Positions 2,367-60,229 of a stretch of 64,000 nucleotides of DNA are shown piece after piece. The stretch spans positions 588,364-652,363 of the forward strand of contig KK106984.1 in NCBI GenBank assembly GCA_000611775.1, given 5' to 3'. Below the pieces are notes generated by a model. That model was not told where the DNA came from. It ran no database searches and saw nothing but the letters and a program-made list of their open reading frames with translations. The position numbers were made by a program, and so were the translations under genes. This DNA is from Umbilicaria muhlenbergii (taxonomy: Eukaryota > Ascomycota > Lecanoromycetes > Umbilicariales > Umbilicariaceae). Each line of letters begins with the position of its first letter. The first letter of the stretch is position 1.

Positions 2367-4431
2367 ATTTGATAATAATATCAATTTAAGCATTATAAAC
2401 TGCTTGATCAAATCAAGCCTTCTTATATCATTTAATATAAGTTAATTAATCAGCTTATTACAAGCATCAGTTCTTTCTTGAATAAATTATGATGTCACTG
2501 TTGATCAGCTTAAAATTATACAACTTTTAAGTTTTTAAGTCTTTTCATCATCAGTTCACTGTCCGCCTCTCATTGACTGCTGATTATATGACAAGCCTCT
2601 CAAATCATTGAACTTTTTATTAAATTGAAGTTATTAATAATTAAGAGCTTCTACTTCAGTTCATGATTTTTTCATAATTAAACTGACTTCTTCATCTTTC
2701 TCTACAAGCCGGCAGGCCTCTTTCACTTTAATGAATGATTTTATATTAACTCTTGCTTATTAAGCTCAGGATTTCTTTGATTCAGAACATTCTTAAAATC
2801 AAGAAATCTTCACCTCTTGAAAGCAAATCATTACTCAGTACCTCTGAGTCACAGTTTAATCAAGACAAAATCAGTTAAGCTGTTGAATTAAACTGTTTTA
2901 AAACTCATGATTCAATCACATCTGATGCTGAATGAGATCATCACTTTTTTACAAGACAACATTTTAACTCTTTAACAACTTCAAGCTTCTCAGATCAGAA
3001 AGAGAGGCTTAAAAGATCATAATAAATAATGAAAAAGCAGGTTAAATGAGTTAAGAAATAAGAGAAGATCAGAGTTTCATTAATACATAATGATAAGAGC
3101 TTGCAGACTTCATAACTTAAGCTGTTATAATAATTATGTTCATTCAATAATCTGACAATGCTGAAAGAGGAGGCAATAACAATGATAATAATGAAAATGA
3201 CAGTGATGCAGTTGAAAGTTTCAGTAATTTTATAAATTCTATCAACTCTTCTACAGTCTTACTGCAGTTTACTCATTGAAAAGTGAATGAGATCAGTTTC
3301 TTCAACCCTTACCTTAATAAGTCTTATGAAGATGATGAAATCATCACTGTCAGAAAAAATATTTATTATTGAAGTATAATGTTGTTCATTAAACACATTT
3401 AAGATATGATTATTATCAAGGGAGCTTAATTAATGAGGATTAATTTTAATACCTGTCTTTAAAATACTTCTCTGATGTAATACACCTCTGAACTCTTCAA
3501 CTTAAAGAGGGTCAGCTTTCAGAATGATGAAAATGATGTTAAAAAGTAATGCTGAGTTTTAAAGAATTAATTTAAGAAGTCAACTGTTGTTGTTCTTGTC
3601 AACCTCATCAGTATAAAGTATATCATGATTAACACACAGAGTCATTGAGAGTCTGCTACTTATATTTAAATGATCCTGCATCATGCTAAATCAGTTAATA
3701 TTAAGAATTAACAGTTCTTTTTTCCTTTCTCAGACTGTTCTGTTCAGAGTTCTCTTCAAAATACCTTTCCTCTTTACTTAATAAATCAGAACCCTTCATT
3801 TACTAATTATCAGCAGTGACTTATCAGTACAGTCATGATTTCACTGCAGGTTTTAAATAATAATCAACATCAGCCTCTGCAGCTTCTGCTCACAACTCTG
3901 AATGAGGTGCTTTATGATTTTCAATCAAGTGAAGCACTCAACTTATTTTAAATGAGTCACTTTACTGAGAATGATCATGACTTCATTATAACAATTGAAA
4001 CTCATGAGCCTGATCATGATCTTATCACAGTTGAAGCACATCTTACACAAGAAGAACACAGCAAAGAAGAATGAATCTTTAAACATGTTATTAAATAAGT
4101 CACTGAATGAGCCTTCAAATGAGTAAAATTTTAAAAAACTCAGAAAAATAATCTTCTACTTATCATATTTAACTATCAGCAGCTTTCACCTGCTGTTAAG
4201 TTTATATTTACTGTTTAACTTTCATTTACTGTTCTGCTTTTGCTTATTGTCAAGTCTTTATTTGCTGTGCAGCCTTCATCAACTTTTCAGTTTCAGCAGT
4301 TTTCACCTTTACCTGTTCAGTGTTTATCACAATTTGCCGCTAGTGCCGCAAAAGGTATTGAGTAAGAAGAAGCATTACTTTAATAATGCATCATTCATCA
4401 GGATGATGACTTTTCTTTGTTATCAATAAAT

Positions 4432-4710: not shown

Positions 4711-5529
4711 TAATTATCTTCTTCTTTGAATATTAATTTTTCAGTATTACTTGCCTTGTACTGTAATACATAATGTAACAGTGTATAATTATCATCCTGA
4801 TAATACTCAGTTATTGATATATTGTAAATATCTCAATCTTAATTCAGGCTGATATATTATTAATAACAAATAAAATTATTAATATGTGTGTTATGAATGC
4901 TTCAGTATTAATTCAGGCTGATAATTTACTGTTGATAAATAAATTTACTGATGTGAAACTTCTTAATTTTAATAACTTTTATATCTTTTTTTCTCTGACG
5001 TGTTAATAATAATATTTTATTATTAACAATATCTTAAATTATCTTCATCAACCTTTTATAATAAATTTAAATACTTTGAATTATATATAATATATTTAAT
5101 TTATTTAATAATAATACAACTTGTGAATTTCACCTGATACTTATTTAATATTATTAATATATTCATAAGCTCCTCTGTCTTTGATTATTAAGCACAGTAT
5201 AAGTTCAGCATTTTATTAAAAAAAATCATAATGTCTTTGTTATTTAAAGCAGATTTTTAATAAATCAGCTTTAATTTATGATATCAGAGAGAATTAATAT
5301 TATTTGCATTATTTAAAGAAATAAAAATATTATAAATCAGTAAATTATATATTTAAAGATATTAAATAAATACTGATAAGTTTAAGTGCCTGTAAAGTTT
5401 TTTTTAAAAATAATTAATCTTCAAAATCTGTTGATCTTTACTTAAAATCTCAAGTTTGATAATGAAACTTATCAAATATACATTAATAAGTTAATAAAAC
5501 ATCAACACATATATATAAAAGATGTAAAA
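4711..5529. other. AT-rich stretch without assignable element
   Basis: Extremely AT-rich DNA between the A-like remnant and C1. The only structure I see is a roughly 70-bp imperfect direct repeat (AATTCAGGCTGATA at about 4841 and again at about 4911). There is no open frame of note and no match to families A-G. Confidence 0.6.
4835..4980. repeat. Two-copy 70-bp direct repeat
   Basis: The shared core TTAATTCAGGCTGATA is followed by similar ATAAATAAATT-type sequence in each unit. Its function is unknown. Confidence 0.5.
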
Positions 5530-6890: not shown

Positions 6891-7149
6891 AGTTAAACTC
6901 ATACAAGGACTGAACATTTCATTAAAATCTTAAAATCAATTACTTAAATGATCACTGAGTCAGTCCCCTGAACACTGAACTGAACATCACACTCAGACAT
7001 CATCAAAGAACAACAGATAAAGAAAGAATGATGTTTTAAATATAATAAATAAAAACACCTTGCCTTAAACTGTTCAAATAAAGACAAAAAGAAAGAGACT
7101 TCAGCATTAAGACATGTGCAACAAATCATATTCAACTCTGACTTTGATT

Positions 7150-8572
7150 TTGAATTAAATTCAGGAAAAGATGTTCTTTTATTAAAATCATGATAAAAAA
7201 TGATGATAATCCTCTTGTGATATTAATGTTGATGATTAATGAAGACATGCTGTTCACTTGAACATCATTTGAAGTGAATTGCAAGCTCACTCTGAATAAA
7301 GTTAAGTTATGAGTCAAGGTCTTACTTAATATTGAGTCAATTGAATATGCATTCATTAATGCTAACTTGATAAAGACTCTGATTGAATGATCTGAAATTA
7401 AGGTAGTATCATTGTCAAAGTCTTGAACTCTACATGATTTTCAGAAGAAGACAGTGAGATGAGTTATATACATGATTTATTTAATTATAAAGGTTTATAA
7501 TCATTCTCAGTGACTCATCCTCATGATAATTATAAACATGAAAGATTTTAACATTATATTAAGACTTCCTTGAATAAATCACACCTGAATTTTAATTAAT
7601 CCTGTGAATCAGGTAGTGATTTTCTCACTGAACAACTGAATAAAACTGAATGAATGAATTGAACTGAACTGCAGAACTGAACACTGAATAAATGAATAAA
7701 CTGAACAATTAAACCTGAATTAAATGACTGAACTGAATCATTGAAAACTTATCAGATCTTGAAGAAATTCATTATAAAAGCAGATCCTGAATCAACCTCT
7801 GCATTAAAAAGTAATAATCCCTCACATGCAGTTAATATCAAGATGATTGATGCAGCACTGTTCACATTAAATATAAAGAAAGATAATGAGATCTTTGTTA
7901 TCTTTATTCAACAGATTGAGGAAGCATTAAACTTTAAATTAAAATTAAATGAATTAAATATCAAGATGATTCTTTCTTTTAAATATTATGACCTGATTGA
8001 TGTCTTTTCTAAAAAGGCTGCAAATAAACTTCATTCACATCAACTTTATGATCACAAAATTGTCTTAAAGGGTGAGTAAAAGCTCAGATACACACTTTTT
8101 TATAATATATCACATGAAGAACTGATAGCAGTGAAGAATTATATAAAAGACAACTTGCAAATTTTTTTTATTGAAGTCAGTCAGTCATCAGTAGCCTCAC
8201 TGATTCTGTTTATATGAAAGAAAAATGAGTCTTTATGACTGTGCATTAACTACTGAAAGCTGAATTCAATTATGAAGAAAAACTGATACTCATTGTCTTT
8301 AATTGAGGAAACTCTGACTCAGATTTTAAAAACAAAATACTTCATCAAGATTAATATACAACAAGCATTTCACTGCATATGAATGAATCTTGATTCTGAA
8401 GATCTGATAACCTTTCAAATAAAGCATGATTTTTACAAATATAAGATCTTGCCTTTTAAACTCATTAACAAATCAGTCACCTTTCAGCATTTTATTAATG
8501 ATGTATTATTCAACTTATTGAACACATGTTGCATAACATATTTGAATGATATCTTGATTTATTTAAAGTTTT
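7150..8572 (+). pseudogene. pol: pol of C1, first part: protease to reverse transcriptase
   Basis: The 7741-8079 segment carries the linker motif YYDLIDVFSKKAANKLHSHQ followed by YDHKIVLK, which in Gypsy Pol precedes the reverse transcriptase (compare YHDFLDVFSEEKAD...YDHKIEL). The 8383-8572 segment carries the palm region with FKLINKSVTFQHFIND and the catalytic-box region YLNDILIY. Protease-region similarity lies upstream (about 7150-7560). The domain is split by D1 exactly after the catalytic box. It is a fossil with several breaks. Confidence 0.8.
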
Positions 8573-21340: not shown

Positions 21341-21402
21341 AGCAGCACAACTTCAGCAGAAAGACTTCATGAACAGAATTTAAATATTAACTTCAACATA
21401 TC

Positions 21403-21630
21403 TGTGAGACTATAGCGTCCCTTACTAAAAAGGGAAGTATAGTTGAGGTTCATGACAGTATGAGATATAAATGTATAAAGGTTATATGATCTTAATTATA
21501 TAAAATTAATAATTAAGGAATGAAGGTGAGATCAAGCAGTACAGAGTTTTCATGTGACTCATTAACACTGTTAAGTCACTTACAGAATGTATATTTTATG
21601 CTAATCTTGAATTATCATTAACTCATGACA
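21403..21630 (-). repeat. 3' LTR of A1
   Basis: 228 bp. On the plus strand it begins TGTGAGAC and ends CTCATGACA. The adjoining 21631-21645 is pyrimidine-rich on the plus strand, that is AAAGGGGAGGCAAT on the coding strand: the polypurine tract. Confidence 0.9.
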
Positions 21631-21644
21631 ATTGCCTCCCCTTT
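21631..21644 (-). other. Polypurine tract of A1
   Basis: Coding-strand AAAGGGGAGGCAAT directly against the 3' LTR, the plus-strand primer site of LTR retrotransposons. A2 has the same tract at about 59100-59113. Confidence 0.75.
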
Positions 21645-21895
21645 ATGCGTCAGCCCTCTGGCGCAGACAGTTGAATGACAGGTAGAAAACTCAATTAACA
21701 GTTGAGATGATAACACAGTGTTGATGATGATTAAGCAAGATTAAAGTGAAGTGAGTTAATCACATGACAGCAAAAACCCTGAGAAGTGAAGAGATAACAG
21801 TGAAGTCATGACAGCATAAATATGACAGCATTATGATAACATAATCAAGACTGTGAGTGATGATATCATAATAAAGATTTCAGAGTATAAATATT

Positions 21896-22750
21896 ATCAA
21901 CTCCTTAATCTTCTGTCATCAACTTTTGCAAGAGCTCTGATTCATCACTTTAACATCAACACAATTCATTCTCTTTGTCAGCTCATCAACTGCATCACAA
22001 CTCTCATCATGCCTGTAAGTCAGAGAAACTGACTCTGCATATATGCTTTTAATGTGAGTCATCATATAATGCTCATCAATTGTTAAGTGCTTTATTAAAC
22101 TTCATGCATGACTCATCAAACCCTTCTGCCTCTGTTGCAGCCGTCATTTCATGAATGACACAACTCAGGTATGTGATGCTTGATTAAATGTTAAATGCAC
22201 ATATTATGCAAACCTGCACAAAGCTTGTCTTTTAATAAGTTTAACTTGCTCATCTGTTGCATTTTACTGATGATTTAAAGTTCCTCTGTGATTTACCTGC
22301 AAGATAAACACTCTCATTCATTTGATTAATAAAGTTAATATTAACACTCCTTCATCTGCCCTCCTGATCACTCTCAAGGTGCATCAAAAGTGTTATAATA
22401 AGAAGATTACAGCACATCTTCATGTTACTGACTGTCATCAGAAGCTGTTGAAATTGAAGTTTATTATCAAGATCAATCTTCTGCTCTTTAAACAAATCAA
22501 GTGCATCAACAATGCACTTGAAGATATCTTAAATATCATGTGATATTTAATTTGATCCCCTTTTCTTCATCACTGACATGACAGTCATGATCAGTTAACA
22601 TGCATCTTATTTTAAAAGTGTTTGCCTGTCATTGTCAACAATGATGATGATGATGATGATGATGAGGATTTTTCTCCCTTCAGGGAGTCAGAGGAGTCAA
22701 AGGAGAATGAAGATGATAAAAAGAAAAATAATGATAATAAAGAGAAGTAA
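21896..22750 (+). other. Candidate antisense transcription unit in A1
   Basis: Opposite to pol. A TATAAATA box (21896-21903) is followed by pyrimidine-rich DNA and a start codon (22009-22011) directly against a GTAAGT donor-like site (22015-22020). An acceptor-like pyrimidine tract plus CAG ends at 22140, and a second donor-like GTATGT is at 22169-22174. An open segment (22322-22543) follows, ending in NNALEDILNIM. A separate acidic open segment, about 22618-22750, has a poly-Asp run and ends in TAA. All these landmarks recur in A2. I recognise no domain. The sites are seen; a spliced gene is inference. Confidence 0.45.
22641..22668. repeat. GAT microsatellite in A1
   Basis: Eight GAT-type units encoding the poly-Asp run of the antisense segment; A2 has a shorter, interrupted version near 60108-60130. 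Confidence 0.85.
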
Positions 22751-23089
22751 ATAATGTTTTGCTGATGTTTTATTAATCTTATATGATAATTTCTTTTTCC
22801 TGCTTTTGTCTGCTGTTGTGACAGAAATAATACTGTGATTCTTTTATGCTTTCTTGATGATTCATCTTTTTTAATGAACTTATCACTCTTAACCTTTGCT
22901 GTAGATCATTTATAAGATTTTAATAAAATTTATAAAACCTCTTGAGGAAAATCAGGAAAGAGTGTTTTTATGATGTTAATTAAATCTTTTTAAATCACTT
23001 TCTTCTGTGCTCTTTTAATTTATTATTAAAGGCTGCATGCATTTTCTGCACACTTTTTAAGTTCTTTTTTATCACTCATTGATCATATT

Positions 23090-25756
23090 CTTCTGATCAA
23101 CTCTTTCATTTCACTTTGTATAAGATTTCATTCCTGTATTTCTGACAGTTTAAAATCTCTTCAACTTTATATTCTTCTTCATCATCAATTAACTCTGAAG
23201 GTGACAGTAATGATTTTAAGTCATCATCAGCTCTGCACTGATATGACTTCAGATAAGAAACATGAAAGATATTATGAATTTAATAAATGAGTGATAAAGT
23301 TAACTTGTAAGCTTCAAGTTGCTTCTTTATTAAGTTTTCAATTTGAAATGATTTAATGAATTTGTGAGACAGTTTCCTGCTTGAGCACTTCTGTCATAAG
23401 GTTTTCATGAATAACATTATCAAGTTTCTCACATTATAGGTCTTGAGTTTATGTTTAATATCATAATATTTTGTCTGAGAATTAATTACATTTTCTCATC
23501 ATTACAATAGTGCTTCTTGTATGTCATGAAATTATTTCATTTAATTTTTAACTGCAGGTACCTCTTTTTTCCTGAAGTCATCTTCAACTTCAAATCTTAC
23601 TTCTGAATAATAAGTATACATGACATAGAAAGGGCTGCATCTTATTAATACTTACATTTCATTATTGTAAGTGAATTCTGTCAAAGGTAAAAGATTTATT
23701 CAGTTGTCTTGTTCATCTGAGCAATAACAGTGAAGATAATGTTTTAAGGTTTAATTCTGTCATTCTGTCTGTTCATCTGTCTGCAGATGAAAGGCAGTGC
23801 TTAATTGATGCTTCATTCTTAAATAATAGCACATTTCTGATCAGAAAGCACTTGTGAAAACTGATTCATAATCAAAGACAACCTCTTTTAATATATTAAA
23901 TCAACATATTATTTTCTTATAAAATAAGTCAGTCAACTCTGTTGCTGTAATCATTTTCATGATTTAAATATATTGAGTCATTTTCATATACTAATTCATA
24001 ATTATTAAGATCACATCATAGATGCAACTCTTGCACTTACTCAACAGCAAGTCAGTGATAAAATTTATTATGACTTGCTGTCATGATTCTTCTGACTGAG
24101 GCAGCGCTTGTAGCTCATTATAAAAATGATGTTTAAGCACTTTCATCTTTTAACAGATGTCACATGATGCAACATAATCTTTAACATCTTAACTCATATC
24201 AATTTAATAATATTTATGATTAAATAATTTAAGAGTTCTTTCTATCCTGAAATGTTCTGTCAAGGCATCATCATGATGATGTTTCAAGATCTCTGCTCTT
24301 ACTGACTTTTCTTTCAGAATGTATATTTGTTTCTCATGAAATAAAAAACCTTCAGAGTTAAATCTTCAGAGACTTTCAACTTTAATCTTATATTTCATTA
24401 ATGTATAATCAGTGTTGCATGTCACTTCTATAAATGAATCATCATTTTGTAGAGTTCAAATCAAATTTTTTAAAGATAAACTTAAACTTTCATCAACTGT
24501 TTCATGAATGACAAGATCTCTTATCATCACATGTGAAATGAATTATTTGCAATCAACAGTTTCAGTGACAGAGTTAAACTGTTTCACAGTTACATCATAG
24601 TTGTTAAAAACAAATGATTTATTATCACTTCTTCAATATTTTTTCTGAAGTTTAAGATTTTTAATTTCAGTTATTCTCCTCACCTCTGCAAGTAATTACC
24701 TCACAATAAGAGCATATCTGAGTGAGAATACATTCACAAGAGTGATTAACTTTCTCTGAAGTGTTGAGAATAATTTCTTCATGATTTTACTCATCTCTTC
24801 AACATTCCTGTAGTCTGATCATCTTAATGATGCATCAGCAGGGTTGATCTTTCTGAACTGATGCAAAATATTAAAATTAAAAGCAGTGAACTTCATTGCT
24901 CATCATGCTTGCCTGTCATTTAATTCCTTCATGTTCATAAATCCTCATAAATTGTTATGATCAGTTAATACCTTTATGATATGACAACTGCCCTCAAGGT
25001 AATGTCATCAGTGTTTAAACATCATAACAATGATAAGAAGCTTCTGATCATGAGTTTTATATTAAATCTCTGAAGGAGACAGCTTTCTTAATGAAAACAT
25101 AATTAAATATCACTCTCTGTTATTTAACAGCTGAGACAGGATGTCAGCAAGCTTAATAATTAACACATCAATTTCTATCTGTATTCATAACTTTGAATTA
25201 AAGTGAATCAGGATAAGTGCTATTATAAAGGCTTCACAGAGGCAGTTAAACACCTCTTTTACATCATTTAAGAATTTAAAAGACTTAAACTTCTTTTCAT
25301 TCTTGTTATCTTTTATAAGGTTTGTCAAGGGGGCTGCAACTTATGAATAACACTTAATAAAGCATTTATAAAAGTTCACAAAGCTCAGGAAGACTTGTAC
25401 TTCCTGAAAAGTTTTTAATACTAATCAGTCTCATATAATGTTCACTTATTATGAGTTCATTGATACACCTTCAGTGATGATAATAAACTTTAGAAATTTC
25501 ACCTTGATAATGAAGAATTCACACTTCTTAAGGTTTATGTAAAGTTGAAATCAACAGAGTCAGTTTAACACCTGCTTAACATGCTCTTAATGTTTTATCA
25601 GTGATCCTGAATATATAAGGATATCATTTAAATAAACAACACAAAAAACATTCACAAGTTCTGTTAATGCTCAGTTGATGTAAGCCTGAAACATAACTGA
25701 AGTGCTGATTAATTCAAAAAGCATGATCATATACTCAAAGTGATTGTAATGCATGT
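23090..25756 (-). pseudogene. pol: pol of A1, distal part: RT to chromodomain-like tail
   Basis: From right to left: the rest of the reverse transcriptase (thumb and connection, about 25300-25756), RNase H (about 24850-25250), integrase (about 23400-24700) and a tail at about 23090-23200 reading LIDDEEEYKVEEILNCQKYR, the start of a fungal chromodomain (E-V-E-x-I-L-D). The region matches A2 60560-63108 throughout. Fossil; multiple breaks. Confidence 0.78.
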
Positions 25757-25761
25757 GAAAT

Positions 25762-26054
25762 TGTAAGAGGCAGGTTATGACGGGTATGACAGAATTAACA
25801 TCATAATCATTATACAATTATAGAACAGGGTATTTAAGCAATATAATCACATATGAAAGTAATAAATAATAGGTCTTCTATTTGATGAGGAAATTAATCA
25901 TTAAGAAAGCAGGTTTTTAAATCTTCTTGTGAAGAGTTTTCACTTGATGTCAAGGTGTTACTCATTAAGTCATCATATAAGTGAGTTATAATAATGTACT
26001 GTCATACTGTCATACTGTTGTACTGTTGTACTATTATATATGATGACTTTGACA
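25762..26054 (-). repeat. 3' LTR of B1
   Basis: 293 bp; TGTAAGAGGC to TTTGACA on the plus strand. It contains a short ACTGTYGT/ACTGTCAT minisatellite (about 25997-26035). The complement of the next bases (26055-26075) is a purine tract. Confidence 0.9.
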
Positions 26055-26946
26055 CAGCATTTCTCTTCTCATGATGTCATCCCTGGTGTCAATTGATTCT
26101 GAATTCATCACCATAGACATCATCATGATAATATGATAAGTAATTGATCATGTAAAGTGAGTGTGTAAAACTGCATCAAGCTCTTGCTGTAGATCACTTA
26201 TAAGATCTTAATAAAACCTGTAAAACCTCTTGAGGAAAATCAGGAAAAAGTGTTCTTATTGCATTAATTAAATTCTGTTTGAGCTGTTCAGATTGTTCAG
26301 CATGTTCAGAATCATTCAGACTGTTTAAACTGTTTAAATTATTCAGCATGTTTGATGTTCTGCAAGGCTTTAATAAAACCTGTAAAGCCTCTTGAGGAAA
26401 ATCAGGAAAAAGTGTTCTTATGACACTGATTAAATCCTGTTTGAGCTGTTTGAATTATTCAGCATGTTCAGAACTGTTTAAGTGTAAGTCTGCCTTTTCT
26501 ACTCCTCTTTCATTTTTGTTTAGTATGACAAAATGTCATAATAATTGTCATACTTTTGTCATACTCATGTTTATTCATTATATTAATATATTCATCATGA
26601 CTTGCTTCTTGAGCATGTAGGTTCTGAACTGCTGATGTTTCAGTTCACTCATGATATCTCTCATAAAGAGTAATATAATTGTCATAGCCTCTGTTGTATT
26701 CTTGTCATAGGGAACAGGCTTCATCATAAAAGATCAAGTTAACAAAGCTGACAAAGTTTTCAGTTCTTAAGACTCATGACTTTTGTGACAGCTTCTCAAT
26801 TGATCTTGAAGAATCATGTTGTACAACTCATCTGAATTTCAGTTTATCAGAATTGTCAGCATGAAACTTTCACATTTTTGCCTTTGCATTGCAGATGAAG
26901 TGTGTTGATTCTCATGTGTCATCTCACACCTGGTCTGTCAGCTTTC

Positions 26947-27008
26947 ATTTGATGAGGTATTGAAGCCTGTCATCATGAACACAGTTATTCACAATTGCTT
27001 TAACTTCT
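26947..27008 (-). pseudogene. Chromodomain-like segment of B1
   Basis: The open segment EVKAIVNNCVHDDRLQYLIK has the E-V-x-x-I-x-x-x...LQYLIK pattern of fungal chromovirus chromodomains, at the expected place after integrase. The homologous part of B3 is at 53840-53930. Confidence 0.6.
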
Positions 27009-27199
27009 CACTCATCATTTTAATTAAGTAGTAGGTCTTTTCCTGCTAATGCAGAGAACACATGACATGTGCCTTAAAATGACTTCAATAAAGTGATGTT
27101 AAACATGTTATAAATATTTTGATCCTCTGAGAGGTTGAGTTTGTATGAGGACTGATTTATCATATGTTATATTTTAAATAAGTTGAGCTTTTTTCAATG

Positions 27200-28150
27200 C
27201 AGTTTCTTCATCTGCTTGTTCATTAACACATTCTTTTCATTAATCAGTATTAAATCACCTTCTTTGAACATTATCTTCATTCAGTGCTGATTGTAATAAT
27301 TTGTATACATTTCATTAACCTGTCATAGCTGCTCCTGAGCTGTTGCAATTTAATCTTGAAGCTGCTGTGCATCTGCATAAAGTCTTATTTGTTCATATGA
27401 GTGCTGTATAAGTGACCTACTTAGGCTCATCTGAGGGTTTCACTTTAAATTAAGCTGAAAGGGGCTCTTTTCTGTAGCAGCATGTATGAAGTTGTTATAT
27501 GAGAACTCAGTGCAGAGTAAAAGTTTTACTCAGTTCTCTTGCTGTTCATTAATGAATATGTGTAAATATGTTTTCAGGGACTGATTCTGCCTCTTTGTTT
27601 AATCATCAGTTTGCAGGTGAAAAGTCATTGACATGTTACAATGACACTGCATGTGAAAGCAGAAGCTGATTCACTGCTCTGATGTAAATAACTTATCTCT
27701 GTCTGTGATTAAAACTTTTGACACATCATGATGCTTAATTATGTCTTGAACAAACACCTTAATGAAGTCAGCAACTGATATTGTCTTCTGTACTGAAATA
27801 TAATGAGTCATTTTGATCAATTTATTGATTATAATAAGAATTAAATCTCATGTCATACTCCTGTATGTGCTGCTCAGAGGCAGGTTCATAATGAAGTTCA
27901 TGATTACTGTATATCACAGCTCAGATGAGACAGGTAATGAGTTTAATAACTTAAATGATTTATGATGTGAAGGCTTAACTTTTTAACACTTAATGCAGTC
28001 ATGACAGTAACATCATACATCTTGAACTGCACTTGATCAGTCATAACTTCACTGCATCAACTTAATTGTTCTTGCTTTGCTGAAGTGACTTGTGAAGATG
28101 TCATCATGAAATCAGCTGATCACTGCTTTGCGGAGGGCAGGGTTCTGTAA
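27200..28150 (-). pseudogene. Integrase of B1
   Basis: Minus-strand similarity to the Gypsy integrase core, matched block by block with B3 (37550-38720), for example the shared AAAGAGCCCCTTTCAGCTTA block at 27453 and 38361. Integrase would join the cDNA to host DNA. Fossil. Confidence 0.65.
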
Positions 28151-28169
28151 AACATAAATTTTATCATTG

Positions 28170-29110
28170 TAATATATGACATTATCAATTTCTTGTCATC
28201 TTGCTTGTATTGCTGTCATGATTGCTGCTGTAACCCTCTCAGGCGTTTTCATAATTGTCATCATGTCAAGCATTTCTGTAATTGCCTTCATGTTAAGTGT
28301 TGTCATAATTGCCTCTGTATTAAGTGTTGTCATGATTGCTTTTATATTAAGTGTTGCCATGATTGTCTCTGTATTAGATGTTGCCTTTGTATTAAGCTTG
28401 ATCAAGTTGTTTTTATCCTCAATAAAGGTAGTTAATCTCTGTTGTACTCATCATACTGAATCATTGTTAGACTGTTCAGTATGAATAATATGTTTAAGTT
28501 GTTTAATAAACATCCTTGTATAAGCTGTTATCTCATCATCAATTGATGTGTGAGTAGACATGAGTTGAAGTGCTTCAACAGTGTCAGCAGAAGCGCCTTC
28601 ATTGAATTAAAAGTTAATAAGATCATTATTGACTGTGTCTTCAATGTTCATAGCTGCAGAGCTTGCTGAGTTATCTTTAATTGAATGACACTGAGGCTCT
28701 GCATACCTGGCCTCATTTGTAATTAATTAATTCATATTGCTATGACTTGCTTCTTGAGCAGATAGATGCTGTCATCACTGCTTTAAGTGTGCTTGAGTGA
28801 CACTGCTAATAACATGTTTCATATTAGCATTCATTATTATGCTATTTTTCATACTGACATCTGTAGTTATGTCTTTCATACTGACATTCATAATTATGTC
28901 TTTTATACTGACATCTGTAGTTATACCTTCTGTATGTATGATACTTGTTTATCATAATGATTGTATTTGATGTTGTGATTACACTTCATTACAGCTTGCT
29001 TCTTCTTGAGTTGATAAGTTTCACATTGCTGATGTTTCAATGAGATCATCATCTTCAGTATTCATCATATCAGTAGTATTCATTGCAGTAGATATGACAT
29101 TCTTTTGTTG
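28170..29110 (-). repeat. Tandem arrays in the RNase H-integrase linker of B1
   Basis: Two separate roughly 30-bp arrays. 28200-28390 (about six units of TTAAGTGTTGTCATRATTGC type) encodes a repeated TLNTEAIMT pattern on the minus strand. 28820-28930 (four units of CATACTGACATCTGTAGTTATG type) follows. A single copy of the longer unit seen many times in B4 (CACTGCTGATGTTTYAATGA...) lies at about 29025-29090. The arrays sit between RNase H and integrase. Confidence 0.78.
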
Positions 29111-29299
29111 TAACTCCTGTCATACTGATTGTCTTGACTGCAGTGTCATCACAGCAAGCATGTACAGTTGCTTTTACACTGACTTATAATTCTCACTTTC
29201 TAAGTGGAAGGACTGTCACATTATTTCAGCAGCAGTTGAGGTTGTTGCAGTCTTCAGCAATTCATAATCAAGTCTTCTTGATAAGTCATCAGCAGAGTT

Positions 29300-30660
29300 C
29301 TTTTTGCCTTCTTGATACATGACATTAAAGTCATACTCAGTGAGCTTTTCAGCTCATTTAAGCTACCTTCTCATGAGATTTGAGGTGATCATAAATCAGA
29401 TCAGGTTTGCATGATTGATTAATATGACAATTGAGTGTCTGACGTCTCAGCAGTAATGATGTCAATGATGCATTATCTTCATGATAACAAGGAGTTCTTG
29501 TTCATCTGTATCATATCATGTCTCTGCATTTAGTAGCTTTCTACTGTAGTATGCAACTGATAATCAATGAAATTGCTCATTAATTTTAAAGCGCTGAGTC
29601 AATATTCTGTCAATGATGAATGCAGAGGTGTTTATTTCAACTTGTATAAACTTATTCTCATCAAAATATTATAATAAAGAAGTGCTCATGAAGGCTTCCT
29701 TTAAAGCCTTGAACACTTTCATTGCAGCTTCTGAAAGTGAAAGTGAAGAAGGTATGACATCTATAATGTTTATTTATTGTAATTATTGTGATTTTAATGA
29801 TACCTCAGTCTTCTTTTGATTTTTTCCTGTTTTCAGAAGTTTTATAAGAGGTGCTGTGATTCATGAATAATTCTTAATAAACCTCTGAAAGAAGTTAACA
29901 AAGCCTAGAAAGACCTGCAATTGATGAACATTCTCTGAAAGTAGTCATTTCTTGATGATGTGTATCCTTTCAGAGTTCATGAATATGCCTTCAATATTGA
30001 TTTTAAAGTCAAGAAAGTTAACCTCTGAAGTGTTGAATGAGCACTTGTTAATCTTAAGGTGAAGATCATGACCTTGAAGTGCAGTAAGAACTTGTTGTAC
30101 ATGCTCTTCATACTTAAACTCATCTTTGCTGAAGATCAGGATGTCATCTAGGTAAATTACACAAGTGATGTCAAGAAACTCATTAAGTGTCTTGTTCATG
30201 AAGACTTAAAACATAGCAGGAGCATTAATAAGGCTGAAAAACATGATGAAATATTTAAATAACTTGAATCATGTTTGAAATGCAGTCTTTCATTCATCAT
30301 CACTTTTAATGCATATTCAGTTATATGTGTTCTTGCAGTTCAGCTTCATAAACCTTCTTGCTCTCTGAAGATAATCAAGCATGTCTGATATCAGTGACAG
30401 TGAATAGCAGTTTTTGATGATGATGTTATTGAGGCGCTTATAATTAATGATTAATCATAAGCTTTCATCTGATTTAAGTATGAACATAACAGATGATGCT
30501 GCAAGTGATATTAATTTACAAATGATGCCTGCTTCAACAGCATTATTGAAGTACACCTTTAATGTGTTGAGCTCAGCTGAAGACATCAAGTATAACTTTT
30601 TAAATAAGAGTTGCTGCTCTGATTTTAAGTCAATGACATGATCATGAGGACCTCTCTTTG
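29300..30660 (-). pseudogene. pol: Reverse transcriptase and RNase H of B1
   Basis: The best-preserved RT segment of the window is 29945-30199: MNKTLNEFLD, then the catalytic box VIYLDDILIFS, then HVQQVLTALQGHDLHLKINK and VNFLDFKI, all diagnostic of Ty3/Gypsy RT palm and thumb. RNase H similarity follows to the left, to about 29300. Fossil, although this segment keeps an unbroken frame. Confidence 0.85.
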
Positions 30661-31199
30661 ACAGAGATTATGTCTTCATCACTTGAAAGATATTCATGAA
30701 GTCATGATACTCAGGTGATAAAGTGTCATAAACATTATCATACTTTTTGTCATAATGTATGAAATTCATTTGCAGAGCTTTCATATCAGCCATTAAATCT
30801 GCTGAGCTTATGAAGTGTTTCATAATGAAGAGATTACTCAAGTGTAGAACATCTTTTAATGTCTTTCTTTTATTAACTGTGAATATCTGTTGTGCTTTAA
30901 TATGCTTCTTTTTTCTTCATAAGAATCTTCTGATTTTGTAGTCATGATTGAGATTTGCATTGACTAGAAATGATAATCTGAGGATAAAGAATGCTGATGC
31001 ATCATTTAAGCTGATGTAAAAGCAGTGATTATAATGATAAAATTAATCATCACTGTCATATGTGATAATCAACAGTATGATGAACTCTGATAAGTTCATT
31101 ACATTGCCTCATGTGTTGCCTTGAGCTTCATATCACTCTGTATGTAGAGACAGCTCATCAACAACATTTCATGTGATTGTATTACCTTGACTGTCATTA

Positions 31200-32650
31200 T
31201 TAATAATATATCAATAAGTTGACCTATGAGTCAGCTCATCTTTTATTATAATTAAAAAGTTCACCTTTAGCTGCTCTGCTATCAGTGATGACATCTCATC
31301 AGTGATAAGTAATGAGGCAAGCTGAAGGTTGACTGTGAATCATTGATTAATGTTAACTGTGATGATGACTGCTGTTGATTATCTCATTTAACATTCATTG
31401 ATTCAGTGGCCTGTGACTTCACACTTGATGCAGAGGTTTGCAGCTTTTCATGCAGTTATTTCATTCATCAATACATGATCCTCTTTCTTACATGACTTTA
31501 TGACTTTATGAGTGATTGTCATCATGATTTTCTCAGCAACTGAAAGGTGATTTGAGTTAATATCTTTTGATTGATCATGCTTGCCTCCTCAGTGAATTCC
31601 TCCCTTGTCATAACTGAAAGGTTGATCATGAAGTATAAGGTCTTCAGTGATAATTTCAGTCTTGTCATAGTCTCAGCTCTTGTTGTAGTATGATGTACAT
31701 GTTATAGTTTTTTCAAAATTATTCATTATGTATTGACGCTCCTTTTTGCCTTCAGTGCAGCTTCAGAATGATTCATTATTAATGATAACATCAAGCTGTG
31801 TAAAGATTTCACTCACTGATTATATCATCATTTACTTTTAATCTCAACATCATAGTTCTGTCAGGACATGATGAGGAAGCCTTAATTTTTAATGATTTTA
31901 AATGAGTATTTCACTGATCTCTTTATATGTATTTAATAGAAAGTGATATAGGTCTGACAGCCTGTCATGTCAAAATGTAATGATGTCATTGCTGCATGAT
32001 TCAATTGTGTTGAAGATAATGATGTTTCACTCATTAATGTTCTCACCTGATGATAAGTTCTTCTTAAGCACCTTAAGATAACTTTTATAAGTTATTTAAG
32101 CAGAGTCATGCTGTTTTTTTTTCTTGCATCAATCACTTAATGTGATCTTCTCTAGGAAGATGACTGATTAGAGAATAAAGTTCAACTCAGTAAAGAACTG
32201 CTCTGACATTATTTTTCTATTTTAATTAATTTCATTTAAGTAGTTCTGCAGCTTCTGTCTGTCACATTTAATGTCACCTGCATACAGGTGAGGTGATCAT
32301 GACTTAATGAGATAATGAAAAAGAAATGAAGTGATGTCTGTCATAACTCAACATTATACTTCAGAATTAAGGCTTGTGTTTTCTGAATTCATCATAATCT
32401 GAGACTCTTGTCATAAGTGTAAGTTGAGTTCATCAAGCTTTTTTTAATTATTGTCATATTCAATCTCTTATTGAGCACGTCAGATTTGTGCTCTCTGAAG
32501 CTCAAGAGCTCATTGATTATGAGCAGTAATCACCTCAACATCTTTTATGTAGTCATTAGAGCAGTCTGTATTAATGTTATCATCATTGATGTTGTTCTCA
32601 AAGAGGATATTAACTGTCAGCAGTGTAAATCTGCTCATTGATGAGCCTGT
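31200..32650 (-). pseudogene. Probable gag/leader region of B1
   Basis: Position between the 5' LTR and protease/RT makes this the gag region. I see no zinc knuckle or capsid motif that I can name. Fossil; assignment is by position only. Confidence 0.4.
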
Positions 32651-32760
32651 TGTGACTTAATTATCAACTGCTTCACTGACCTGATGAGATCAAAGTGTTG
32701 ACGTCATCATGTTATTACTCTGATGTGGCCGTTCACCTGGTGAGTGCAGAATGATCAGTA

Positions 32761-33053
32761 TGTAAGAGGCAGGTTACAACAGATATGACAGAATTAACAT
32801 CATAATTATTATATAATTATAGAATGAGGTATTTAAGCAATATAATCATGTATGAAAGTAATAGATAATAAGTCTTTTATTTGATGAGGAAACTGATCAT
32901 TAAGGAAGTAAATTTCTGAACCTCTTTATGAAGAGTTTTCACTTGATGTCAAGGTGCTACTCACTAAGTCATCATATAAATGAGTTATAATGACATACTG
33001 TCATACTGTTGTATTGTCATATTGTCATACTACTATATATGATGACCTTGACA
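32761..33053 (-). repeat. 5' LTR of B1
   Basis: 293 bp, same length and ends as its partner, followed by GAAAT. Confidence 0.9.
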
Positions 33054-33086
33054 GAAATACTGTTTTCCACTCATCACTCTTCTTTA

Positions 33087-33531
33087 ACATAACTCACGGG
33101 GCAACACTGCACTATAAGCAACACTGCACCCCCCCCCCCCCCACTCAAGGGAAAAAAATCAGAATTTCACCAATTGAGCTGTAAATTTTGATCTAAATAA
33201 GAAACTTTGAAGCTCTACATTGTAGTTTATAACAGAGTTGTAGTATTTATGCATTTTAACATCTTTAAGACTGCTTTTGCTGTGATAATTGCAGTCTTCA
33301 CAGTCTGCTTCTCCTCTTTATCCTGCAGCTGTTTTAACTTCTTAACTTGTGTCTCTAGCTGCTTTCTGAATTTGTAAAAGCATTATTATAAGCCTTAATG
33401 ATCTTCAGAATACACACTTCTTTCTTTGTTGAATGCATGCAATTATGGTGGAGAAATGGGTAATTTCAATAGTTGAGGAGGGGGGGGGGTGCAGTGTTAC
33501 TTATAATACAGTGTTGCCTCATGAACTATGT
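33087..33531. mobile_element. MITE with TA target duplication (Tc1/mariner-like)
   Basis: 445 bp, flanked by TA (33085-33086 and 33532-33533). The terminal inverted repeats run about 50 bp: ACATAACTCACGGGGCAACA on the left matches, in complement, ACATAGTTCATGAGGCAACA on the right, and both continue through CACTGCACCCCC. A 14-base C run (33129-33142) and a 10-base G run (33480-33489) lie at the inner ends of the arms. There is no transposase. The centre keeps TGG and is less skewed than its surroundings, so it is probably a recent arrival. Confidence 0.85.
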
Positions 33532-35700
33532 TATGCAAATACAGTGATAAGTGTTCTTTAAATTTAACTTCATAAATAACTTAGCTTCATTAAGCTGATT
33601 CAACATTTCATTTATAAGAGGTAACAGATGCCTGTTCTTGATGATCATCTTATTCAACCTCTGATAATCAATGCATAAGTGCAGCTCTTCATCTTTTTTT
33701 AAAATAAAAAGAATGAGTGCTCCTGCAGAGCTCACAGAATGATGAATTTAATCTTTTATTAAAATATTATTCAGATATTCTCATAGCACCTTTAACTCAG
33801 TATTAAAGAGATTATATAAAAGATCATAAAATGAATCTGTGCTGTTTAAGTTAATTATATGATCACTGATCTTGTAAGATGAAAGGAGGTCAGCATTCTT
33901 CATTAAAAATATATTCACATAATCAGCATATTCCTCAAGTAAAGCTTATATTATATTAATGCTTTATATGCGCACCTCTGATGCAGCATCATCACTCAGA
34001 CTGACTCATATCATGATGTAAACAGCAGAATAATCTTGAATCTCTTTTATAAATTCATCAGATGACTGTAACTCAATAAACTGCTTTTTAATGTTGAAGT
34101 GTCACACCTTTATTCTGCAGTTGATTCACACATGCTCAGTCTTTAATGTAAAGAGTTCAAGGATAAGAGGTGATTCTGACTTATTTAAAACATAAAATAC
34201 ATATTCACATTCATGAGATTGTCCTCAACTGTCAGTAAGCTGATAACACATATGATAAGCACTGAAACAGTAAGCCTTCTGATCATTCAAGAATTAAGAT
34301 TGAGGCAATAAGCCTTTTATATGAGTCAATTGATGCTTAATAATAAAGTGTTGCAAAATTACATTGACTTCAGCTCCTGTGTTCAATAAGACTTGCATGA
34401 GTATGACATCATCATTGTGAAGAACTTGTTCATCAACAATTAAACTGAACTTCAAGGCTACTTTTGTTCAGCACTTCAGCAGTGTGAAGTCTTCACTGAA
34501 GTGTTTTCATTTTTTGATGCTGAAACAGCTGCAATTAAAATCTTATTCAGGTCTGAGTTCTTCACAGGCTGTGAATAATCAAGGGAATAATATCTCTTCT
34601 GATTATAATTTTAAAAAGTCATATGTGATAAGTTTTTTATTTCAGGAGTCTTTATTAATCTGCTTTTATATTTATTATCTCACTTGCTCTTCATTTTCTT
34701 TTCATCAGGCTTATGATCCTTATTCTCAGCAGGCTTCAACAGCAGCTCAGGTTTATAACTGAAGATGATTATCATATTAAAATTTACTTTCAATTTCATA
34801 ACATCTCTCAATCATAAGTTATTCTTTAAGCATGTGATCAAGATGATGATTCCTTTTTAAATTATGAGTAAGTCTTGATAATTCATCAAGGCTGCATGAA
34901 TTTCAGACTTCAATTTTGTGAAGAAGTGAGTCCTCATGTGCTCTTCACTGTAAGAAGGTAACTGAGCTTTCAAGGTGCTTAAATAGCTATTAAAAGCTTA
35001 AACTGATTAATGAAGTAATTGAACAGCATCATTATTATACAGCTGAGTGATGTAAAGCTGATGATTCACAGAGTTCTTAATAATGTTGAGCAGAAATTTC
35101 ATAAAATCATTTCAGATAACAGTGAAATAATTTCTTATCTCATTATCTTGCAGTCACACCTTCTTTGATTCACTTTTTAAGTATTACATGACATAAATCA
35201 TCTTATTCTCCTCATGAGGGAAATCAGCTGAGTTAAAATGAAAGGTAATTCTTGCATCTTGCATTTAATTCAAGTGCTTTTTCATGTTCTTATCATGATA
35301 TAACAGCAACTCCTTTGCCTGAATTCTTGATCATACATTTCATATTGACAGCATTTCATCAGTGCGGCGCTTGCTTATTACAGATTCAGCATTCATCAAG
35401 TTGAGGAATTTATCAATTGAGGTATCAACATGAGTAGCAGAATCTTTGAGTAAGTTGATTTTTAATGTTAAAACTTTCATTCAGAGCTGTTGCAGCTCTT
35501 GTTACTTTAAGAGTTCATCTCACTGTCATTTCACTTGTGTGATTTTATTATTAATGTTGTGCACTGTTTCTCCTGAGGATTCTTCACTCATGAGGTTCAC
35601 TTCACTGATGTCAGAGGAAATGAGTGATGTTTTATAATCATTTTATTGATTCTTCATCATCATGTCTCATTCTGCTTCAGAAGTTTGACATAATTGATTT
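33532..35700 (-). pseudogene. gag/pol of A1, proximal part
   Basis: 33535-33735 on the minus strand is a clear Gypsy reverse transcriptase N-terminus: SSAGALILFILKKDEELHLC, then IDYQRLNKM and LLPLINEMLNQL. This is the region before the first catalytic Asp. Linker and protease similarity lies at about 33800-34500, and the rest to about 35700 should be gag by position, though I cannot name motifs there. The MITE sits directly beyond the RT segment. Fossil. Confidence 0.75.
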
Positions 35701-35755
35701 TAAATTTACATCTTATCTCAGGTCATCATCCTTTGAAAGATAAAATTATTAAAAC

Positions 35756-35983
35756 TGTGAGATTATAACATCCCTTATTAAAAAGAGAAGTATAGTTGAG
35801 GTTCATGACAGCATGAAATATAAATGTATAAAGGTTATATGATCCTAATTATATAAAATTAATAATTAAGAAATGAAGGTGAGATTGAGCAGTGCAGAGT
35901 TTTCATATGATTTATTAATGCTGTCAAGTCATTTACAGGATGCATACTTTATATTAATCTTAAATTGTCATTAACTTGTGACA
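35756..35983 (-). repeat. 5' LTR of A1
   Basis: 228 bp, begins TGTGAGAT and ends CTTGTGACA on the plus strand; followed by ATATC. Confidence 0.9.
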
Positions 35984-36495
35984 ATATCAAGTGAAAGACC
36001 TGATATGATTACTAATAAAAAATATTTAAACAACTCACTTGTTCAAAAAGTTAAATCACAAGAATGAAGGACCTTTTTGAATCAAGAAGAAAATATCAAC
36101 TTAAATATATAAACTTGAACTGCTTAAATTAATGAAAATACACTCTGTCTTTCATATCTTCTTATTACAACTCACTGCAAATGATTTTTTACTTAAATAA
36201 ATTAAGTCATCATTATCACCTGTAATAACTGAACAGGCTGAACTGAAATGAGAAGTTGAATAAATTAATGATAATCATTAATGAAAAATCAGATTATAAT
36301 ACAGAGTGACATAAAAAAGTTATTCACTTGATAAGACTTGATACAACATTAATGAATTTAAACACTCACCTGAACTGAAAGAGGCATTTCATGAAAGGTA
36401 CTTAAATAAGCTGACTGAGTCACTGAATACATTAATGATGAAGCAGAAAAGTAGATGATTATTTCATGAAGCTCATTAAATAAAGAAGAGAATAA
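35984..36495 (+). pseudogene. C1 integrase tail with chromodomain-like end
   Basis: Continues C1 after A1 (target duplication ATATC at 35984-35988). The segment matches C2 53040-53550, where NEFKHSPELKKAFHRRYLNK (53409-53468) resembles the end of the fungal chromovirus chromodomain (FKNAP...FH..YP). Chromodomains guide integration to marked chromatin in known chromoviruses; here this is inference from similarity. Fossil. Confidence 0.65.
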
Positions 36496-58871: not shown

Positions 58872-59099
58872 TATAAGATTATAATGTTCCTTATTAAAAA
58901 GAGAAGTATAATTGAGGTTCATGATAACATGAGATATAAATGTATAAAGGTTATATGATCTTAATTATATAAAATTAATAATTAAGAAATGAAGGTGAGA
59001 TTAAGCAGTGCAGAGTTTTCATATGACTCATTAACATTGTTAAGCTGCTTGTAGAGTGCATGCTTTATGTGAGTCTGAAATTATTATTAACTCATGATA
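58872..59099 (-). repeat. 3' LTR of A2
   Basis: 228 bp, same length as both A1 LTRs; ends CTCATGATA. Confidence 0.87.
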
Positions 59100-59354
59100 A
59101 TTACCTCCCCTTTATGCAGCGGCCCTTCAGCGCAGAAAGGTGAGTGACTGATAAAAAGCTCAATTAACAGTTGAATCAGTGACATGACATCAACACTGAT
59201 TAAGTGAGATAATAATGAAATGAGCTTATCACATGACAATGAAAACCCTGAGAAGTGAAGAGACAGCAGTGAAGTCATGACAGTGAAGATGTGACAGCAT
59301 TATGATAATATTATTAAGGCTGCAGATGATGATATCATAATAAGAGCTTCAAAG

Positions 59355-60216
59355 TATAAATACTGTCAACTTCTCAACCTTCTGTCATCAACTTTTGTCA
59401 GAGCAGTGACACATCATTAACACATCATCAACACACCCTCAAAATGCATCATTTTCATCATCACAACATCAGTCATTATGCTTATAAGTCAAAGAAGCTG
59501 GCTCTGCAGATGCACTTTTAATGTGAGTCATTATATAACATTCACTCATTGTTAAGTGCTTCTTTAAACTTCATGCATGACTTATCAAACCCTTCTGTCT
59601 CTGATGCAGTCATCATTTTACAGATGACATGACTCAGGTATGTGATATCTGATTGAATGTTAAGTGCGCATATTGTGTAAATCTGTATAAAGCTTATCTT
59701 CTTATAAGTTTAACCTGCTCATTTGTTGTACTTCATTAATGATTTAAAGTTCTTGTGTGCTTCATCTGCAAGATTAACACCTTGATACACTTGATAAATA
59801 AAATTAATATTAACACTTTCTCACCTACCCTCCTGATCACTCTCAAGGCGTGTCAAAAGTGTTATAATAAGAAGATTACAGCACATCTTTGTGTTATTGA
59901 CTGTCATCAGAAGCTGTTGAAATTGAAGTTTACTGTTGAAGTCAACCTCCTGCTCCTTAAGCAGATCAAGCATATCAACAATGCACTTAAAAATATCCTG
60001 AATATCATGTGATATTCAGTTTAATCCCTTTCTCTTCACCCTTGATGCAACAGTTATGATCAGTTAACATGCATCTTATTTTAAAAGCATTTGCCTGCCA
60101 TTGTCAACAATGATGATAATGATGATGATGAGGATTTTTCTCCCTTCAGGGAATCAGAGGAGTCAGAGAAGAATAATGATGATGAAAAGAAGAATGATGA
60201 TGATGAAGATGAATAA
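59355..60216 (+). other. Candidate antisense transcription unit in A2
   Basis: Counterpart of 21896-22750. TATAAATA is at 59355-59362, the start-codon position at 59478, an acceptor-like CAG ends at 59609, and GTATGT is at 59638-59643. The open segment 59755-60012 ends NNALKNILNIM against NNALEDILNIM in A1. The acidic segment, about 60094-60216, shares DEDFSPFRESEES with A1 and ends in TAA. Conservation of frame and end in two independently mutated copies is the main argument for function. No known domain; the first donor-like site is weaker than in A1. Confidence 0.45.
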
Positions 60217-60229
60217 ATAATGTTTTGCT

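Follow-up and report, generated by a model that had tools for sequence, protein, structure and literature searches.

A probable antisense gene, decayed and apparently spliced, between pol and the 3' LTR of chromoviruses in Umbilicaria muhlenbergii

The window analysed here, a 64,000-nt stretch of the Umbilicaria muhlenbergii genome, carries two copies of a Ty3/gypsy chromovirus family (family A) with pol on the minus strand. The body of copy A1 lies in two parts, 21402-25751 and 33538-35985, separated by a 7.8 kb stretch (25752-33537) that has repeats in common with the window at 53-57 kb and 37-39 kb. Its LTRs, both on the minus strand, were located by self-match and by mapping both LTRs of L067, a full copy, on the window; the 3' LTR is at 21402-21632 and matches 35755-35985, and the 5' LTR is at 35754-35985. 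In the full copy the LTRs are about 230 bp each (340-572 and 6942-7174) and the whole element measures 6.8 kb. In A1 the 3' end of pol, comprising the integrase C-terminus and the start of the chromodomain, is found at 23145-23267 on the minus strand (match to C4:611508-611630, minus strand). The match of copy A2 spans 58876 to 63108, less than the full element length. Here the 3' LTR is at 58876-59104 and the 3' end of pol (integrase tail and chromodomain) at 60622-60741, both on the minus strand, the latter matching C4:648985-649104 (minus strand).

Both copies have a unit on the plus strand, antisense to pol and situated between the end of pol and the 3' LTR. The initial annotation had described it as a conserved arrangement of a promoter-like box, a start codon, splice-like signals and segments leading to a TAA, and this description is confirmed in both copies. 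In A1 the box, TATAAATA, is at 21886-21893, and all eight letters are kept in 40/40 copies of the family; in the full copy it lies about 250 bp inward of the 3' LTR. The predicted exon 1 is ATGCCT (22009-22014; ATG in 39/40 copies), followed by putative intron 1 (22015-22087) with donor GTAAGT, a CTRAY-like branch site and an acceptor AG. Exon 2 (22088-22234, 49 codons) encodes a six-cysteine domain and is decayed, with two stops in A1. Putative intron 2 (22235-22279, 45 nt) has a donor that in A1 has decayed to ATAAGT. Exon 3 (22280-22549) includes the ...NNALEDILNIM segment and is followed by putative intron 3 (22550-22618, 69 nt), with branch site CTAAY, acceptor AAG and a donor that is the least certain junction of the model. 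Exon 4 (22619-22750) encodes an acidic tail, DEDFSPFRESEES..., and has the stop TAA at its end. In A2 the window map places the box at 59355-59362, exon 1 at 59478-59483, exon 2 at 59557-59703 (decayed, three stops), exon 3 at 59749-60018, and exon 4 with its stop at 60088-60216, all on the plus strand. A third plus-strand antisense unit (5193-5528), very decayed, is of the type of a sister family, B, with exon 2 at about 5193-5339 and a piece of exon 3 at 5361-5528; its ends are approximate.

A DNA search of the genome (34.8 Mb, 7 contigs) scored at least 40 copies of family A, namely A1 and 39 others with 77-83% identity to it, and all 40 were aligned. Their antisense units are decayed, with a G+C content of 0.33-0.45 and a CpG observed/expected ratio of 0.04-0.38. 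C/T polymorphism among the copies is most frequent at CpG, but a C followed by T, C or A is also affected. The window copies are dead, and their mutations are mainly C-to-T, most often at CpG. Across the whole window CpG observed/expected is 0.05, CpA and TpG being enriched and CC/GG depleted. Classical RIP targets CpA; unlike this, the decay of repeats in the window seems to be aimed mainly at CpG. Some copies occur in matching pairs. L047 (C3:1903114-1906174) and L048 (C2:5773620-5776680), on different contigs, have equal identity, coordinates and base composition, and further pairs, with equal scores, are C3:2565563/C4:1863607 and C3:1902163/C3:4570432. Such pairs suggest the duplication of blocks already mutated, both within and between chromosomes.

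In the aligned copies, most fixed or near-fixed stops of the antisense frame fall in three gaps (919-991, 1139-1183 and 1454-1522), each of which contains splice signals, with branch sites CTGAT, CTGAT and CTAAY, respectively. Intron-like signals, as initially annotated, are present, and in three gaps. Judged by sequence, the segments are compatible with a gene of four exons and three introns that has the TATAAATA box and an ATG. The first donor, which had been thought to be kept in both copies, is GTAAGT at 22015 in A1 and a decayed site, ATAAGT, in A2. Its acceptor had been set at 22140 (junction 22015-22140) and is better placed at 22086-22087, because that AG is kept in 40/40 copies; the one at 22139-22140, by contrast, belongs to a TCN/AGY serine codon that reads TCN in 25/40 copies. 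For intron 3, a start at GGTATCC was rejected, no frame-keeping acceptor having been found; the donor adopted lies 26 nt further on and fits family B too, and is weak (GTTTAA-like). A weak point of the model is a TGA at 1445, within exon 3, in 37/40 A copies (AGA, CAA and AAA in the other three). It could be a product of early decay, and is read as such since exon 4 runs on in the same frame and family B is open there; the segment in A could instead end at ILNIM.

As the decay proceeds by transitions, transversions should mostly date from the active life of the element, and the coding test was based on them. Columns were counted in the antisense frame where at least two copies were on the minor side. 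The pol side is divergent in L015, L025, L027, L033 and L046; the codon count used 39/40 copies, excluding L046, and the pol control excluded all five. The check by synonymous excess in further family-A copies, put forward in the initial annotation, gave a clear outcome with the 40 copies collected: in the three main antisense segments the transversions at codon positions 1/2/3 number 6/2/32 (39 copies; p 1.8e-9), although the columns are few (40). By segment the counts are 4/1/15 in exon 2, 1/1/9 in exon 3 and 1/0/8 in exon 4. No significant third-position excess was found in the control regions, that is, in the introns (2/4/7, p 0.10), the 5' part (11/7/12, p 0.28) and the LTR side (5/5/9, p 0.15); the positive control, pol read in its own frame, had 11/15 at third positions (p 0.002). 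A comparison of four-fold with two-fold third positions showed a trend only (15/62 vs 17/121, p 0.068). The length of exon 2 is constant in the 40 copies and that of exon 3 is changed in 1/40; exon 4 is a multiple of three in 38/40, which its GAT repeat would favour anyway.

All 40 copies have serine at codon 1043-1045 (L039 numbering), as TCT in 19, TCC in 6, AGT in 14 and AGC in 1. A switch between TCN and AGY requires two steps and makes sense only under protein coding. This bears on the idea that it is the antisense RNA, not a protein, that matters, by pairing with the genomic RNA and feeding silencing or self-limitation, with the frame as a relic. The promoter-like TATA box in 40/40 A copies would suit such an RNA, and roles of double-stranded RNA are discussed for plant elements in passages of PMC7264820, but the codon-position pattern and the serine switch require a translated product, and we regard the RNA reading as very unlikely.

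The retention of open segments, which had been considered remarkable initially, proved to be of little use, openness being common on both strands; the proof lies in the codon-position pattern. Exon 2 is open in 19/40 copies, the exon-3 piece 1196-1444 in 33/40 and exon 4 in 38/40, and all three main segments are open in only 5/40 A copies, with exon 3 trimmed before the TGA. Of the ten A copies listed, several have open frames, reaching 98 codons, on both strands, and since the sense strand is open too, frame openness was rejected as evidence of coding. The open sense frames, and an overlap of the 3' ends of pol and the antisense frame in a related locus (L074, below), might suggest an env-like sense gene here, or a pol that extends into the region, with the antisense frames as a shadow of it. 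The sole minus-strand frame that shares the wobble positions, however, is stopped in 37-40/40 copies at 1288, 1297, 1339 and 1342, which together with the codon-position pattern makes this reading extremely improbable for A.

A search of the genome with the exon-3 peptide gave 102 matches, of which the last ten, at 34-40% identity, represent sister family B. In the long translated matches, among those listed, pol of B is mostly 72-77% identical to that of A; the families have the same LTR piece, and the unit is likewise opposite to pol in B. Thirteen B copies were aligned. Exon 2 of B has 147 nt, as in A, exon 3 has 94 codons (90 in A) and exon 4 is longer, with 155 codons; all three introns are in phase 0 in both models. 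The ungapped score of exon 2 between A and B was 43.5, against a maximum of -3.3 in 200 shuffles (40 A copies, 12/13 B copies). In B copy L066, intron 2 reads GTAAGT...CTGAC...CAG at the same place as in A. As far as sequence goes, the shared layout speaks for a common ancestor that would have been spliced. The TATA box is absent at the expected place in B, and transversions in B are too few to show any codon periodicity. A TGA stands inside model exon 2 in 12/12 B copies and another inside exon 3 in 13/13. As other stop positions in B vary between copies, with TGA in some and CAA or CAG in the rest, the near-fixed TGAs are taken for early decay, and the B gene may have been dead already when B spread. 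Fixed TGA stops in model exons slightly lower our confidence in the antisense-gene reading.

Antisense genes are found beside pol throughout this genome. In 101/106 related pol matches the unit is opposite to pol. Beside another chromodomain family, locus L073 (C-type) encodes an antisense peptide with six cysteines at Zn2Cys6 spacing; its 61-residue peptide gave 168 candidate matches, 150 of which were scored. The A/B exon profiles did not retrieve the C-type locus. Among 150 scored chromodomain matches (of 508 candidates; a few, with long frames, resemble ordinary host genes), 124 are followed within 2 kb by a unit on the opposite strand, compared with 1/150 on the same strand, and 114 of these 124 units lie 200-257 bp from the chromodomain match. 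Some of the 26 matches lacking a unit are probably host genes, and others may be chromoviruses without an antisense gene. That the unit in the window is due to chance, its frames being open at random in AT-rich DNA with C-to-T mutations, would agree with the openness of both strands, but in the face of the codon-position statistics, the exon-2 shuffles and the opposite-strand placement in 124/150 matches it is barely conceivable.

In the less mutated D-type loci L074 and L075 (CpG 0.89 and 0.97) the antisense frames are open, with 153 and 142 codons, respectively, from an ATG before the cysteines. In L074, where the pol chromodomain scores 63.1 bits, the antisense frame and pol overlap at their 3' ends. 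Differences between L074 and L075 are distributed 6/5/22 by codon position outside the overlap with pol (p 9e-5) and 5/4/5 inside it, without third-position excess. The two loci also differ by one in-frame 33-nt stretch resembling a repeat unit, and L075 is located some 3 kb from the end of a contig. The C- and D-type antisense proteins align at 52/99 residues. Their cysteines are spaced C-x2-C-x6-C-x7/8-C-x2-C-x6-C and are followed by a charged stretch that by eye is coiled-coil-like, with weak matches to coiled-coil models.

The six-cysteine domain in exon 2 of family A has the layout C-x2-C-x11-C-x7-C-x2-C-x6-C. The spacing of the Zn2Cys6 domain (PF00172) is C-x2-C-x6-C-x5-12-C-x2-C-x6-8-C. 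The A/B cysteines fall outside it, the second gap being 11 and not 6, whereas the C- and D-type proteins share their cysteine spacing with fungal Zn2Cys6 proteins, with Pfam scores below the cut-off. PF00172 scored 13.0 and 15.0 bits on D-type sequences (cut-off 21) and found no match among 19 A members, and the C-type peptide matched 0 Pfam families. A profile comparison of the A-type with the D-type domain gave a probability of 0.3%, and common ancestry of the two is unsupported by it. That no domain could be recognised, as reported initially, agrees with our searches: with exon pieces of A, B, C, D and L056 (a related locus considered below), Pfam, NCBIfam and PDB gave none over cut-off, and Chromo was matched in a D-type pol piece only. 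Rows for ROR-gamma (E 0.9-1.6) and a deaminase row for L056 (E 0.0044, residues 26-85, partly over the cysteines) were taken for chance.

Fungal DNA-binding regulators typically combine a cysteine cluster at Zn2Cys6 spacing with a helical stretch and an acidic tail. The C-/D-type gene, with Zn2Cys6 spacing and a coiled-coil-like stretch, points to a role as a regulator. For the unit in the window, the most likely role would be that of a small element-encoded regulator acting on the element's own DNA or chromatin, a proposal that we make tentatively. A distinctly possible alternative is a real antisense protein gene with another role, its product being an RNA-binding, anti-silencing or particle protein and its cysteines belonging to another fold. 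This would accord with the A/B departure from Zn2Cys6 spacing, with the lack of any domain model over cut-off and with the D-type scores of 13.0 and 15.0 against 21 bits, but the layout of the unit and the D-type spacing resemble those of the fungal DNA-binding regulators.

The proposed origin of the gene by capture from the host is partly supported by L056, a locus with no detected pol. L056 is GC-normal (G+C 0.44-0.51 in full 500-base windows, CpG 0.91). At about 3038-3300 it has a single exon-2 domain, in which five cysteines out of six keep the A spacing, and a donor, GTAAAT, where intron 2 begins. Compared with shuffles, this locus scored 70.5 against A (shuffle maximum 4.1) and 78.0 against B (maximum 5.8). 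In translated comparisons of L056 with six element loci, the cysteine domain was the sole match and pol gave none. Downstream there is exon-3-like similarity that by eye is shifted by one base where the next exon begins, and L056 may be a pseudogene or reflect an assembly slip. The domain and the donor at the same position partially support a host-gene origin; the direction of transfer is unsettled, for the sequence could be donor or descendant of the element gene. A captured host gene might also be a mere passenger with no role in the element, as a GC-normal locus sharing this domain, and this domain only, with the element loci would allow. The presence of the unit at 101/106 pol matches and the selection during the evolution of the element argue for use by the element, however, and L056, which looks frameshifted, could itself be a relic of an element gene. 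We consider the passenger reading unlikely.

The unit is very probably a decayed copy of a genuine accessory gene that belongs to a Ty3/gypsy chromovirus and runs antisense to gag-pol. Its sequence is that of a gene with past coding selection, a frame broken by intron-like gaps, the same exon layout in B, a place beside nearly all of the related pol matches examined and a six-cysteine domain. An accessory gene of the element had been among the initial suggestions, and it is supported by the codon bias, the serine switch and the opposite unit at 101/106 pol matches. We suggest that the TATA box would act as the gene's own promoter, that the intron-like gaps would be spliced and that the cysteines would bind zinc. 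The small protein, with its cysteine cluster, helical middle and acidic tail, might then enter the nucleus, bind DNA or chromatin and regulate the element. Owing to their antisense direction, the introns would stay in the sense genomic RNA and so persist through every cycle of reverse transcription. A wider scheme, which is rather doubtful as a whole, is that nearly every chromovirus lineage of this fungus has a self-promoted antisense zinc-cluster DNA-binding regulator, that of A/B having come from a host gene by uptake of unspliced genomic DNA, with introns kept because the antisense orientation hides them from the splicing of genomic RNA. Throughout one genome, an antisense gene adjoins chromovirus pol, with past selection on its protein, intron positions shared by A and B, a recognisable cysteine layout and open frames in less mutated relatives. 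The idea arising from this is zinc-dependent DNA binding by an antisense protein. Unnamed fungal hypothetical proteins of the same layout may be genes of elements and not of the host.

Antisense genes of this placement have precedents. The initial annotation knew of none in fungal chromoviruses, but Boty of Botrytis cinerea (also in Sclerotinia) has an antisense gene, brtn, between pol and the 3' LTR, according to passages of PMC7264820 that cite Zhao et al. (2011, Virology), and a passage of PMC4227169 gives Boty-like elements a CHROMO domain. By these passages brtn resembles the unit here as the extra antisense gene, at the same place and on the same strand, of a fungal Ty3/gypsy element with a CHROMO domain. 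According to a passage of PMC8365987, it was left out of the last B05.10 genome annotation. Introns, a six-cysteine domain and a GC-normal relative are found here and go unmentioned for brtn in the relevant passages of the citing papers, the comparison being one of descriptions. In PMC3248453, on fungal LTR elements, 'antisense' does not occur.

In plants, gene23 of Grande, RIRE2, TRP28 of Retand and PvRetro13 share place and strand with our unit, as described in parts of PMC7264820 and PMC11963269. The same parts report an own promoter for Grande and propose a nuclear or DNA-binding role for plant antisense genes. For Retand, the sections of PMC11963269 concerned report that 97% of clusters have antisense frames encoding a TRP28 domain, propose DNA binding, and assign the element to a non-chromovirus lineage, unlike the chromovirus here. 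The plant genes, as far as these sections describe them, encode TRP28, SMC and other domains, in contrast to the six-cysteine cluster, and the word 'intron' is absent from the main texts of both papers. Genes classed as aORF-3R lie between pol and the 3' LTR, are antisense to gag-pol and occur in most copies with a conserved protein, and the same was found for the unit here; for an own promoter such as that reported for Grande, TATAAATA in 40/40 A copies is only a sign. Antisense genes placed between pol and the 3' LTR are thus a known kind in fungi and plants; judged by gene structure and cysteine layout, and as far as the literature passages go, the apparently spliced, cysteine-rich form is new.

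If the wider scheme is true, a fungal retroelement would encode, through a spliced gene, a nuclear regulator of itself, with a role comparable to that of retroviral antisense regulators. HBZ of HTLV-1, which is spliced and nuclear and has a different fold (bZIP), and asp of HIV-1 are also antisense genes of retroelements, and no relationship to them is claimed. In HTLV the 3' LTR contains the antisense promoter, according to a passage of PMC7264820, as opposed to the putative internal promoter here.

DUF3716 (PF12511) was considered as a candidate domain and rejected: by eye, none of its 7 genome matches lies on a unit, and there was no match among the 19 A members. Five of its genome matches are over cut-off, four of these five with stops, and DUF3716 may represent another decayed repeat-borne gene.
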